In this document: in pieces, positions 3,672-13,029 of the stretch | How the letters are laid out: every line of letters starts with the position of its first letter | Position numbering within the stretch: the first letter of the stretch is position 1 | From: Gelria sp. Kuro-4 | Lineage (GTDB): Bacteria; Bacillota; DTU030; DUMP01 | Length of the DNA stretch: 64,000 nt | Reading direction: 5' to 3' | Assembly: GCF_019668485.1 (NCBI RefSeq) | Contig: NZ_AP024619.1 | Span: 318,501-382,500, forward strand | Notes under the pieces: model-generated | What the model was told of the DNA's origin: nothing | What the model saw: only the letters and a program-made list of their open reading frames with translations | Databases searched by the model: none | Made by a program: the position numbers and the translations under genes

Positions 3672-4301
3672 ATGACACACACCCTGCACCGGATCGGTAG
3701 TTGGGACGACTTAGCCGGCGATTATGTATTTCTCATGATGCCGTCCAAGGGCATCAACGTCCAGGGTTCCGGCGAAAAACTCCGCACCTTCTTGCAGATT
3801 GCGCTGCAGCACAACCCGGTCAGCATCGGTGATGCCCGCAAGGGCAACGCCTACCATCAGGGCGGTATCGACAACCTCCTGGCCAATGTGGAGGACCAGG
3901 CGGTGGTGCACGCCGTCTTCGACAACAAGGAAACCGTGGTGGAGGTGCTCAAGGAACTCGTCAAGGCCGACCTGGGGATGTCGGTGGTAGTGTCGGGCAT
4001 TGCCGCCGAGGTGCACGAAGCCTGCCACGCCGCCGGCCTCACGCGGCACACGGTGGAACACTCGCTGGGCCGCTGGGGCCGCACCGACAAGCTACCGCCC
4101 CGTGAGATCCTGGAGATAACCAACATGTGCGGCCACTCCATGGTACCGGCCCAGCTGGTGCACAAAATGATTGAAGACGTAAAAGCCGGGCGCCGCACCG
4201 CCGCGGCGGCAGCGGCGGAGCTCGCCAAGCCCTGCATGTGCGGGATCTTTAACACCGAGCGCGCCGCGCGCCTGCTCACCGCCCTGGCCGCACGCTTTTA
4301 G
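3672..4301 (+). CDS. Partner protein P1 of the repeated F-P cassette (unknown function)
   Basis: 209 aa, soluble, family not recognised. Begins MTHTLHR, shared by all three copies. Residues invariant in the three copies include Cys118, His126 (HTVE), Cys153 and His155 (MCGHxMV) and Cys188/Cys190 (CxCGxFN). The His80 region (VHAVF) and SxVVSG are also conserved. Four invariant Cys plus His residues suggest a metal or Fe-S site that could accept electrons from F1; this is inference. The start at 3672 was chosen because GAGGAGG precedes it and the MTHTLHR start aligns in all copies. An upstream in-frame extension would overlap F1. Confidence 0.8.
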   Translation: MTHTLHRIGSWDDLAGDYVFLMMPSKGINVQGSGEKLRTFLQIALQHNPVSIGDARKGNAYHQGGIDNLLANVEDQAVVHAVFDNKETVVEVLKELVKADLGMSVVVSGIAAEVHEACHAAGLTRHTVEHSLGRWGRTDKLPPREILEITNMCGHSMVPAQLVHKMIEDVKAGRRTAAAAAAELAKPCMCGIFNTERAARLLTALAARF

Positions 4302-5627: not shown

Positions 5628-6065
5628 ATGTCTGGCGATCGTCTAGCCGCCCTGGTAAGCTTTGTCGTCGGCCTGCACTGGTCCTACAAGGGCCTGGTTT
5701 ACGGTTACTGGATGGACATGGGACCAGGGCCCGGGTTTATCCCGGTACTTTTCGGCAGCCTGACGCTCATCCTCAGTATTTCACTTTTCCTGCAAACCCT
5801 GCGCAAAAAAGGCGACGCCCTAACCGTCCGGGAGGTGCGTACAGTCGCCCTCGTGGCAGCCGCGGTAGGCGTAAGCATCTGGCTCATGCACCTTCTCGGC
5901 ACCTTTGTCAGCTTGGGACTTTTTCTGGTCGCCTGGCTGTGTCTCCTGGAACATTACCGCTTGGCGGCCGCGCTGAAGATCGCTCTACCCACCGTGATAG
6001 TGGCTTATCTTGTCTTCACCGTCTGGCTCCAGGTTCCACTGCCGCAGGGTCTTTTCGGTTTTTAA
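5628..6065 (+). CDS. tctB: Tripartite tricarboxylate transporter small membrane subunit TctB
   Basis: 145 aa, about four hydrophobic segments, with the TctB-like start in which a first helix is followed by GPGPGFIPVLFGSLTL near residue 30. TctB is the small integral membrane subunit that pairs with TctA. The ATG at 5628 has GGGGGC upstream; an in-frame extension to 5511 has no family-like residues. It ends 18 nt before tctA. Divergence in this family is high, so the order tctC-tctB-tctA is part of the assignment. Confidence 0.88.
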   Translation: MSGDRLAALVSFVVGLHWSYKGLVYGYWMDMGPGPGFIPVLFGSLTLILSISLFLQTLRKKGDALTVREVRTVALVAAAVGVSIWLMHLLGTFVSLGLFLVAWLCLLEHYRLAAALKIALPTVIVAYLVFTVWLQVPLPQGLFGF

Positions 6066-6083: not shown

Positions 6084-7610
6084 ATGGAAATCCTCAATTA
6101 CCTGCTGCTAGGATTTGCCCAGGCGTTGCAACCGGTCAACATCCTGTTCGCCTTCCTGGGCGGCCTGATGGGCGTCATCGTGGGCGGACTCCCGGGGCTG
6201 GGGTCGGTCGCCGGCGTGGCCCTGCTTCTGCCGCTCACCTTTAAGATGAACCCGGCCACGGCCATCATCATGTTGGCCGCCCTGTACTACGGTAACATGT
6301 TCGGCGGCTCCATCAGCGCCATCCTCATTAACATCCCCGGGGACTCACCTGCCGTGATGACCGCCCTGGACGGTAACCAGCTCGCCAAGCAAGGTCGCGC
6401 CGGTCACGCCCTCTTTATGGCCTTCAGCGCCTCCTTCTGCGGCGGACTGATCGGTATCATCATCCTCACCCTCATGGGGCCGCTGCTCGCCTTTTTAGGG
6501 CTCAAGTTCGGGCCGCCGGAGTTCGCGGCGCTCATCGTCCTCGCCCTCACCAGCATCGGCTGGCTTCTGGGGGACAATCCGGTGAAGGGTGTCATCGCCG
6601 GCGCGGTGGGACTGCTCTTGGCCACCATCGGGGTGGACATGATTCAAGGCCAACCGCGCTTCACTTTCGGCCTGGTCAACCTCTCTGCCGGCGTTCCCTT
6701 CATCCCGTTCGTCATCGGTCTCTTCGGCCTCTCCCAAGTGATGCTGATGCTGGCTCGTCCGGAGGAGTTCACCGGCGGCGAACAACTGTATCAGAAATTG
6801 TCGCTCAAAGACAGCCTCCTCGCGTGGGCCGAGTGGCTCCGTTGCGCCTGGACCATTGTACGCAGCGCCGTTTTGGGCTTTTACATCGGCCTGCTTCCCG
6901 GCTCGGGGGCAACCACTGCCGCCTTCCTTTCGTATATCGCCGCCAAGCGGCTGAGTAAGCACCCGGAACGGCTGGGCAAAGGCGCCCTCGAGGGTGTAGC
7001 CGCGTCGGAGGCGGCGAACAACGCCGCCAGCATCGGCGCCTTTGCTCCGCTCTTATCGCTGGGCATTCCCGGCTCCGGCACCACGGCCATCCTGCTCGGC
7101 GGTCTCATGATGTGGGGGCTCACCCCCGGCCCTCTCCTCTTTAAGGAAGCGCCGCAGTTCGTCTGGGGCCTCATCGCCAGCATGTACGTAGGGAACCTCC
7201 TGGTAGCCCTCACGTGCATTTTGTCCATTCCCTTTTTGATTTACGTCCTTAAGGTGCCGCGCTCCGCGCTGGCGCCCATCATCGTTACTGTCTGCATCCT
7301 CGGTGCCTACAGCGTGAACAACAGCGTTTTCGACCTCTGGGTGATGGTTTTCGCCGGGCTCCTGGGCTACTTCATGAACCGCTTCAGTTTCCCCATCCCG
7401 GCGCTGGTGCTCTCCCTCGTGCTCGGCCCGCGCCTGCAGACTTCCATCCGCCAGTCCTTCATGATCTCCCACGGCAGCGCAGCCATCTTTCTCACCCGGC
7501 CCATCTCCCTGACCCTGCTTTTGATCGCGGTCTTTCTGACGCTGCTTCCGGCGCTCAGCGCCTGGCACAAGAAGCGGCTGGCGCAACAGAGTGCAGTGGT
7601 CGGCGGGTAA
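6084..7610 (+). CDS. tctA: Tripartite tricarboxylate transporter large membrane subunit TctA
   Basis: 508 aa with roughly a dozen transmembrane segments, the usual TctA length. Diagnostic stretches are GVIVGGLPGLGSVAGVALLLP near residue 30, ISAILINIPGDSPAVMTALDG, and FYIGLLPGSGATTAAFLSY in the second half. This is the channel-forming subunit of a cation-driven carboxylate importer that works with TctC and TctB. The start follows GGAAAGGTAGGG. Its end reaches within 20 nt of the FAH-family gene, consistent with one operon. Confidence 0.95.
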   Translation: MEILNYLLLGFAQALQPVNILFAFLGGLMGVIVGGLPGLGSVAGVALLLPLTFKMNPATAIIMLAALYYGNMFGGSISAILINIPGDSPAVMTALDGNQLAKQGRAGHALFMAFSASFCGGLIGIIILTLMGPLLAFLGLKFGPPEFAALIVLALTSIGWLLGDNPVKGVIAGAVGLLLATIGVDMIQGQPRFTFGLVNLSAGVPFIPFVIGLFGLSQVMLMLARPEEFTGGEQLYQKLSLKDSLLAWAEWLRCAWTIVRSAVLGFYIGLLPGSGATTAAFLSYIAAKRLSKHPERLGKGALEGVAASEAANNAASIGAFAPLLSLGIPGSGTTAILLGGLMMWGLTPGPLLFKEAPQFVWGLIASMYVGNLLVALTCILSIPFLIYVLKVPRSALAPIIVTVCILGAYSVNNSVFDLWVMVFAGLLGYFMNRFSFPIPALVLSLVLGPRLQTSIRQSFMISHGSAAIFLTRPISLTLLLIAVFLTLLPALSAWHKKRLAQQSAVVGG

Positions 7611-7629: not shown

Positions 7630-8508
7630 ATGAAGCTGGTGCAGTTTTACGGTCCACAAGGTGCGCTTAAGGTGGGCCTGCTCCAGGGCAACGTTGTGCG
7701 CGATTTAACCCTGCCCGGGGACGGGCTGACCACTACCAATGCCTACTGTCGGTGCGCTCTGGCCGCCGGTACCGACCTGGCCGCTCTGGTGGCGGGCGTA
7801 GCGGCCGGTCGGGAACTCCCGTGCTGGGAGTTGGCGCAGGTTCGCCTTACCCTGCCCTTTTACCCGGACGAGGTGTGGGGATGCGGTGTAACCTACAAAA
7901 AGAGCATGGAGTTTCGGGCCGAGGAACTAGCCGAACCAGAGAACATTTATGAACGGGTCTACAGCGCCGCCCGGCCGGAGGTTTTCTTCAAGGGTACGGC
8001 GGCCCGCTGCAGCGGGCCGGGCGAGACCATCGGCAAGCGGGCCGACTCGCACTTCACCGCGCCCGAGCCGGAGTTGGCCGTGCTGGTGGGAGCGGAGGGG
8101 CAGGTGCTGGGCTACACCCTGGCCAACGACGTCTCTGCCTGGGACATCGAGCGGGAAAACGCCCTCTACCTCCCACAAAGCAAAATCTACGCCAAGTGTT
8201 GCGCCCTCGGGCCTTACCTCGTCACCCCCGACGAAATCCCTGATCCGTATGCCATAGCCATATCTTGCCGCATCCGGCGGCAAGGGGATATAATCTTCAC
8301 AGGTGCCAGCAGCACCGCTAATTTGAAGCGGCGGATCCCCGACCTGGTCAGCACCGTTCGCTCCGCCAACGTTCTTCCACCCCTCACCGCCATCCTCACC
8401 GGCACGGGGATCATCGTCCCGGAGGCGGCGGCGCTCGCGCCGGGTGACGTGGTGGAGATAACCGGCAGCGGGCTCGGCACTCTGGAAAACGTCGTGGAGG
8501 AGGTTTAG
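7630..8508 (+). CDS. Fumarylacetoacetate hydrolase (FAH) family enzyme
   Basis: 292 aa. The FAH fold is recognised by the metal site: the acidic PEPELAVLVG motif (residue about 140) and NDVSAWDIE some 20 residues later, then GTGIIVPE near the C-terminus. Members cleave or dehydrate 2-keto acids and sugar acids (for example 2-keto-3-deoxy acid dehydratases or acylpyruvases) using Mg2+ or Mn2+. The ATG at 7630 has GGAGG upstream. It follows tctA by 19 nt, so it probably processes what TctCBA imports. The exact reaction is unknown; the sugar-acid branch is a guess, helped by the nearby alcohol dehydrogenase. Confidence 0.85.
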   Translation: MKLVQFYGPQGALKVGLLQGNVVRDLTLPGDGLTTTNAYCRCALAAGTDLAALVAGVAAGRELPCWELAQVRLTLPFYPDEVWGCGVTYKKSMEFRAEELAEPENIYERVYSAARPEVFFKGTAARCSGPGETIGKRADSHFTAPEPELAVLVGAEGQVLGYTLANDVSAWDIERENALYLPQSKIYAKCCALGPYLVTPDEIPDPYAIAISCRIRRQGDIIFTGASSTANLKRRIPDLVSTVRSANVLPPLTAILTGTGIIVPEAAALAPGDVVEITGSGLGTLENVVEEV

Positions 8509-12190: not shown

Positions 12191-12952
12191 TCACGCGTTC
12201 TTGACAAAGTCGCGGATAAAAACCCCCAGCCGCTCCACTACCTTGTCGCAGATCTCTTTCCCCAGCTCTTTGCCGGTTCCCTCTGGATCGCCAAAGGCAC
12301 CGTTAGCAGTGACTTCGTGGGTATAGAAGGGAAAGTCCACCTTCCACTGGTCCCGCGAGCCGATCATTTTGTAGGGCCAGTGCTCGTCACCCTTGGCTAA
12401 GCGGTCCATATGCACAAGATCCTCGTCCAGGTAGAGCGCGACAGCCAACCCTGGGTCGGCCCCGTGGCCGCGCTTTTCAGCCGGGATTTTGGCGACCACG
12501 TCGCGTACCAGGTCGATGTACAGGGTGTGCGCCACTTCCACACCCAGCTTTTCTTTTAGGTCCATAGCCACCACGTTGCAGGCGTGTTTGTTGCCGCCGT
12601 GCGTGTCGATTAAGAGAAACTTCTTGAAACCGAACCGATGCAGGCTGGTGACGATGTCCTCAACCACGGCCATAAAGGTGGACTGTCGCAACGTCACTGT
12701 GCCGGGAAAGCGCATGTGGTGGAAAGAAACACCGATGTGCACCGGCGGGGTGACAACCGCCAGCGGATGCACCTGCTTGGCCACCAGCTTGGCCAGTTCG
12801 TACGCCTGCGCCCCGTCCACCTTCAGCTTAATGCCGGGGCCGTGCTGTTCATTGGATCCCACAGGAATAATCGCCAGTTTCGCTACCTTGTAGGCTGCTT
12901 CAGCCTCCGGCCAGGTCATCTCAGGCAGAAGGTAGATGCCCTCTATATTCAC
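12191..12952 (-). CDS. Creatininase-family amidohydrolase
   Basis: About 253 aa. Creatininase-fold metal motifs: GSNEQHGPGIKLKVD (Glu, His, Asp ligands) near residue 36 and DTHGGNKHA in the middle. The usual HAGExETS motif is replaced by GHGADPGLA, so one Glu ligand appears to be Asp or absent. Family members open cyclic amides or act on pterin/riboflavin precursors. It is the last gene of the dipeptide-transporter block and so may hydrolyse an imported lactam or amide. GTG 12952 lies nine bases from GGAGGG; ATG 12961 abuts that site and is less likely. Confidence 0.8.
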   Translation of the reverse strand: MNIEGIYLLPEMTWPEAEAAYKVAKLAIIPVGSNEQHGPGIKLKVDGAQAYELAKLVAKQVHPLAVVTPPVHIGVSFHHMRFPGTVTLRQSTFMAVVEDIVTSLHRFGFKKFLLIDTHGGNKHACNVVAMDLKEKLGVEVAHTLYIDLVRDVVAKIPAEKRGHGADPGLAVALYLDEDLVHMDRLAKGDEHWPYKMIGSRDQWKVDFPFYTHEVTANGAFGDPEGTGKELGKEICDKVVERLGVFIRDFVKNA

Positions 12953-13029
12953 GCCAATCATCCCTCCGTAGTTTTTCCGGCGGCAGCGCAGACAGCGTAC
13001 GCCGCCGGTTCTGTTTTTTCCGGGCTTGC

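Follow-up and report, generated by a model that had tools for sequence, protein, structure and literature searches.

The window examined here, a stretch of 64,000 nucleotides from the thermophilic digester bacterium Gelria sp. Kuro-4 (PMC8375477), holds three copies of a gene for a protein, P, each next to a gene for a partner, F (Table 1). This raises the question as to what P binds and what the pair does. The original prediction held that four Cys and several His are invariant in the three copies and that P, as a soluble protein encoded with a ferredoxin, is likely to bind an Fe-S cluster or another metal, or to use thiol chemistry.

Table 1. Features of the window, with their positions, strand and the basis of their assignment
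Feature	Position	Strand	Basis or remark
F1, partner of P1	2935..3657	+	Fer4-type N-terminus (residues 2-55) and ~180-aa domain with GRGTEEMKTNDVT motif
P1 (209 aa)	3672..4301	+	ATG start, TAG stop; ORF reading, alignment, AF2 model
P1 N-terminal motif H3-T-L-H6-R7	3678..3692	+	near-invariant in homologue alignment
P1 Cys118	4023..4025	+	Cys in 87/124 homologues
P1 His126 in HTVE	4047..4049	+	His in 121/124 homologues
P1 Cys153-Gly154-His155 (MCGH motif)	4128..4136	+	124/124 homologues
P1 Cys188-x-Cys190 (CxCGxFN motif)	4233..4241	+	124/124 and 123/124 homologues
TctC substrate-binding protein, downstream of P1	4452..5450	+	PF03401, E=5e-44; start may be 4419
TctB-like membrane protein	5628..6065	+	position and clustering with TctB relatives
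TctA transporter	6084..7610	+	clustering with TctA relatives
FAA-hydrolase-family enzyme	7630..8508	+	best NCBIfam similarity AraD1/GguC, below cut-off
F2, partner of P2	8818..9534	+	start could be 8788
P2	9538..10155	+	aligned with P1 and P3
Zn-dependent alcohol dehydrogenase-like protein, after P2	10205..11200	+	Pfam/NCBIfam scan
M20-peptidase-like protein, directly before F3-P3	19558..20943	+	named from relatives: groups with three genes from other F-P loci
F3, partner of P3	20948..21673	+	overlaps P3 start by 4 bases
P3	21670..22341	+	aligned with P1 and P2

Conserved residues and predicted fold of P

Cys118, His126, Cys153, His155, Cys188 and Cys190 are indeed invariant in P1, P2 and P3, and the four Cys are the only ones of P1. 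An alignment of 124 distinct homologues (pairwise identity down to 29%, with a median of 44%), drawn from a motif-baited genome scan and from motif-free whole-genome searches, narrows this set: Cys153, Gly154, His155 and Cys188 are each present in all 124 sequences and Cys190 in 123, the single exception being a gap in one row, whereas position 118 is Cys in 87 (70%) and Ala, Leu or Val elsewhere. The first scan selected on the two Cys motifs, and the motif-free searches agree with it; Cys118 is present in 17 of the 28 homologues of the motif-free sample. The P family has three invariant Cys (153, 188 and 190), not four. Since Cys118 varies across the family, it is not an obligatory ligand; this excludes a four-Cys [4Fe-4S] site of the classic kind within P and leaves three Cys with a His or with an open iron. 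Only 11 of the 209 columns are fully invariant and three of them are Cys, against four Cys in the whole of P1; given this enrichment (hypergeometric p = 0.0004), the pattern is unlikely to be due to chance.

As to the His, invariance holds for His155 (124/124) and nearly so for His126 (121/124), but His3 and His6 had been overlooked, as had Arg7, Asp17, Asn29, Ser104, Asn194 and Arg197. These residues are near-invariant: His6, Arg7 and Asp17 are kept in 122-123 of the 124 homologues, Asn29, Ser104 and Asn194 in 123, Arg197 in 120 and His3 in 119; Gly136 and Leu141 are further near-invariant positions. Judged by conservation, His126, His6 and Arg7 are candidate active-site residues.

The AlphaFold2 model of P1, built with 93 homologues, is very confident (pLDDT 95.5, pTM 0.91) and displays a ferredoxin-like α+β core (residues 18-108) followed by a C-terminal helical region carrying the Cys/His motifs. 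The Cys motifs are located in two loops (151-159 and 185-194) that share one end of a hairpin formed by helices 160-171 and 177-184; as these loops constitute the start and the end of the hairpin, the secondary structure implies that the motifs should lie near each other, and suggests that Cys153, Cys188 and Cys190 may converge in space. A cofactor or metal site at Cys153, His155, Cys188 and Cys190 is well supported by the invariance of these residues across deeply diverged homologues and by the position of both loops at the same hairpin end in a very confident model; this part of the original prediction stands, without its fourth Cys.

The nature of the site is less firmly set. Its CGH...CxC arrangement could make a Cys3His site for a mononuclear Zn or Fe, and pairs of Cys and His are also typical of thiol catalysis, so that P might hold such a metal or work through redox or nucleophilic thiols, with F supplying electrons. 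A model for the latter is the catalytic subunit of ferredoxin-thioredoxin reductase, which like P is small, contains Cys and has a ferredoxin as its partner; that subunit, however, needs about six conserved Cys (CPC...CPC...CHC), more than P conserves for an arrangement of this type, and P with its three invariant Cys was rejected as such a reductase. As a partner with two cluster sites furthermore favours an Fe-S centre, we regard a mononuclear metal or thiol site as rather unlikely.

Searches of Pfam, NCBIfam and the PDB gave no homologue of P whose function or structure is known. Against Pfam and NCBIfam, none of the 93 homologues scores above a curated cut-off, the scattered matches (E 0.001 or worse) involving one to three members each, and P1 and P2 alone match no family above cut-off; against the PDB, the best hmmsearch match of P has an E of 0.056, and Foldseek gives 0.02 for P and 0.003 for F at best, with none at or below 0.001 for either. 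The Foldseek matches of both proteins cover the common ferredoxin-like core only (TM-score of query <0.35). These sole structural matches, ferredoxin-like α+β proteins (PII-like, dimeric α/β barrel, ACT, McrD), share the strand-helix order of the core, but none matches over the full length or accounts for the C-terminal Cys/His region of P. PII-like proteins are among the top matches of P (TM-score of query ~0.25-0.29) and aspartokinase regulatory domains among those of F, as would be expected if both were PII/ACT-like sensors in which the conserved Cys and His are structural or regulatory. Such a role is very improbable: the matches are weak and restricted to the core, P does not qualify as a PII/ACT fold, and the invariant polar residues and the operon position look enzymatic.

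Partner protein F and its pairing with P

The ferredoxin with which P had been said to be encoded does adjoin it, but is larger than anticipated. The N-terminal ~55 residues of F resemble a bacterial 2[4Fe-4S] ferredoxin (Fer4, PF00037), with two cluster motifs, a score of 44.8 bits against a cut-off of 21.1 and eight cluster Cys that are all invariant in 119 homologues; the match ends at residue ~57, beyond which the Pfam/NCBIfam scan yields no family match. Unlike such ferredoxins, F has an additional ~180-residue C-terminal domain with an invariant pattern of its own, GRGTxE-K...GR...P...G...E...K, and P has no Fer4 domain. Among 86 homologues, the invariant residues of F are the eight Cys and G85, R86, G87, T88, E90, K92, G112, R113, P142, G153, E170, K228 and G234. 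F is not a plain ferredoxin; its GRGTxE-K region looks, from the residues conserved, like a functional site, which suggests that F is no simple carrier but a subunit, and its domain probably contributes to the active site.

Of 160 testable cases, 154 have F directly upstream of P and in the same orientation. In the window, P1 follows F1 after 14 bases and P2 follows F2 after a gap of 3 bases, while P3 and F3 overlap by 4 bases. Six P genes are apparently devoid of an F. Three of them (L043, L066 and L071) are the second P of an F-P-P or P-P tandem, and L146 has a recognisable F within the same stretch; in L037 and its duplicate L139, an ORF apparently lies between F and P, judging by gene order. 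The distances of F and P are correlated (r = 0.80; permutation maximum 0.10), showing that the two are not only co-encoded but also co-inherited. No F-P fusion was found among the long open frames examined, those considered (e.g., L145) being upstream read-through in GC-rich DNA. An ORF whose similarity to F is confined to the C-terminal part, the ferredoxin sites being absent (L150:6708-7088), directly precedes an intact F-P pair and is possibly a pseudogene or a separate domain.

In the AlphaFold2 models (pLDDT 90.9 and pTM 0.88 for F1), the C-terminal part of F and the N-terminal part of P share a ferredoxin-like core with the same strand-helix-strand-strand-helix-strand order. When the two profiles are compared, P 45-125 aligns in register with F 136-223; this match, although weak (E 0.07), makes F and P possible ancient paralogues.

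Occurrence and gene neighbourhoods

The Gelria genome, a single contig of 2,880,462 bases, contains nine P copies, three of which are 98-100% identical to P2 (P2 itself and two further copies at 98-99%); these near-identical copies adjoin different transporters. Relatives of P are found in Bacillota, Desulfobacterota, Chloroflexota, Synergistota (Synergistales) and archaea such as Bathyarchaeota and Desulfurococcaceae, and most of the carrier lineages are anaerobes. Their distribution is patchy, with a match in 20 of 299 genomes of an even sample of the phylum; a plasmid search returned no homologue.

Within the Gelria genome, the pair occurs with TctCBA and the FAA-family enzyme (P1), a Zn-dependent alcohol dehydrogenase (P2), Opp and M20 genes (P3) or TRAP, HIBADH and AOR genes, and in a minimal arrangement at 2.26 Mb (L153:7583-10267) where a GntP-family permease is followed by F-P only, the P being 99% identical to P2. 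In the scan, three neighbour genes of F-P match M20. The neighbourhood of F-P is very mixed overall, with ureide, peptide, transporter and redox genes, including hydantoinase and FdrA/AllG genes at some chloroflexal loci. P subfamilies nevertheless track their neighbours: CooS-like, AOR, LarA, HIBADH and Tct genes each cluster on the P tree beyond any of 500 shuffles, which do not translate into exact probabilities as related loci are not independent; clustering is less clear for TRAP, M20 and PdxA.

Several of these neighbours point to organic acids. The HIBADH-type proteins score best against L-threonate dehydrogenase and the LarA-type proteins against racemases of 2-hydroxy acids (LarA specificity is also covered in PMC7583248). 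PdxA, RraA and GlcD are other neighbours of the hydroxy- or sugar-acid type; together, these neighbours suggest that F-P is an enzyme for imported hydroxy or sugar-type acids that exists in substrate-specific versions.

AOR-like, CooF-like and FAD oxidoreductase genes also recur beside F-P. In the CooS-like neighbours (e.g., L072:5676-7220), just four Cys are conserved (48, 51, 56 and 70), which we take to be the B-cluster positions of CODH, and the conserved C- and D-cluster ligands have been lost, a pattern repeated in L036, L051, L056, L064, L067, L068, L076, L081-L083 and L087. Given this loss and the low score of the L072 protein (80.6 bits against a CODH cut-off of 478), they are probably not CO dehydrogenases, and CO oxidation was rejected as the theme of this clade. 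The AOR-like, CooS-like and LarA metalloenzymes, frequent neighbours in several clades, could be served by F-P as an activator, maturation factor or electron carrier. We consider an accessory role of this kind improbable, since many F-P operons (GntP-F-P, F-P-TctCBA-FAA, M20-F-P-ADH) lack any such enzyme and nine diverged copies in one genome better suit substrate-specific enzymes.

Three further observations concern individual neighbours. In L059:1544-3391, L061:5081-6919 and L066:1-1710, AOR-like proteins encoded beside F-P and LarA read CYACSSHHY where most relatives have CxxCxxxC, so that their third cluster Cys appears to be lost. Near F2-P2, the Zn-dehydrogenase and a creatininase-family protein (12191-13024) display sub-threshold similarity to the IolM/IolN pair of an inositol pathway. 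A gene adjoining F1 on the minus strand (1268-2734), and found also in L009-L011, encodes a large protein in which, from its sequence, a ThiF/HesA-type domain appears to be joined to a MobB-like GTP-binding domain; it may go with the AOR cofactor genes close by.

Proposed function of the F-P pair

We tentatively propose, at a little short of an even chance, that F and P form a two-subunit cytosolic Fe-S enzyme that has its cofactor on the three invariant Cys of P and carries out ferredoxin-linked redox chemistry on imported hydroxy or sugar-type acids. F and P would be two subunits of one enzyme, with several substrate-specific versions per genome, whose ferredoxin-like domains would pack as a pseudo-dimer. 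P would carry the active site, Cys153, Cys188 and Cys190 holding a cofactor, most likely a [4Fe-4S] cluster whose fourth iron is either open or bound by His155; the two F clusters would pass electrons to or from it. A small organic acid, probably an imported carboxylic acid of the hydroxy or sugar type, would be bound by His126, His6 and Arg7 of P and by the GRGTxE-K motif of F, and would undergo ferredoxin-linked reduction or reductive C-O cleavage, or the reverse oxidation. A redox reaction is proposed solely from the F clusters and the redox neighbours, and any chemistry common to all F-P loci is, with neighbourhoods so mixed, a guess.

Open-site [4Fe-4S] enzymes with three Cys ligands include IspG, IspH, NadA and the aconitase type. 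P resembles them in having three and only three invariant Cys, its cluster being putative, and electron supply by a ferredoxin, as proposed for F-P, would resemble that of IspG/IspH. The Pfam/NCBIfam and PDB searches gave no sequence or fold match of P to any of these enzymes, its ferredoxin-like core being unlike their folds.

The same three Cys are the starting point of the main rival, ranked ahead of the mononuclear metal or thiol site and of the accessory role: the open iron of the P cluster would act as a Lewis acid dehydrating hydroxy or sugar acids in a non-redox hydro-lyase, the F clusters only keeping that of P active. Three invariant Cys with no invariant fourth are what it calls for; it also fits the minimal GntP-F-P operon and the succession of F1-P1, Tct transporter genes and an FAA-family gene whose product is most similar to AraD1/GguC, a family that includes 2-keto-3-deoxy sugar acid dehydratases. 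Known Fe-S dehydratases, however, need no dedicated two-cluster ferredoxin subunit, whereas all eight Cys of F are invariant; redox genes recur beside F-P, and the Pfam/NCBIfam scan relates P to no known dehydratase family. A hydro-lyase is thus unlikely, though a serious contender.

The F-P pair is novel at the family level: present in nine copies in one anaerobe, in substrate-specific catabolic operons, it is yet unnamed in Pfam, NCBIfam and the PDB, and the passages searched in papers about 6-hydroxynicotinate reductase, CODH gene clusters and LarA contexts make no mention of it. Possibly, and we say so with reserve, it represents a new class of two-subunit Fe-S enzymes, widespread among anaerobic bacteria and archaea, with a three-Cys cluster in a C-terminal module of the catalytic subunit devoid of a known structural counterpart, and provides the entry step of many pathways for organic acids in anaerobes. 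Should F-P be an Fe-S enzyme, it would fill a gap in many anaerobic pathways; its substrates could be narrowed from the adjoining transporters, and the minimal GntP-F-P operon makes this directly testable.
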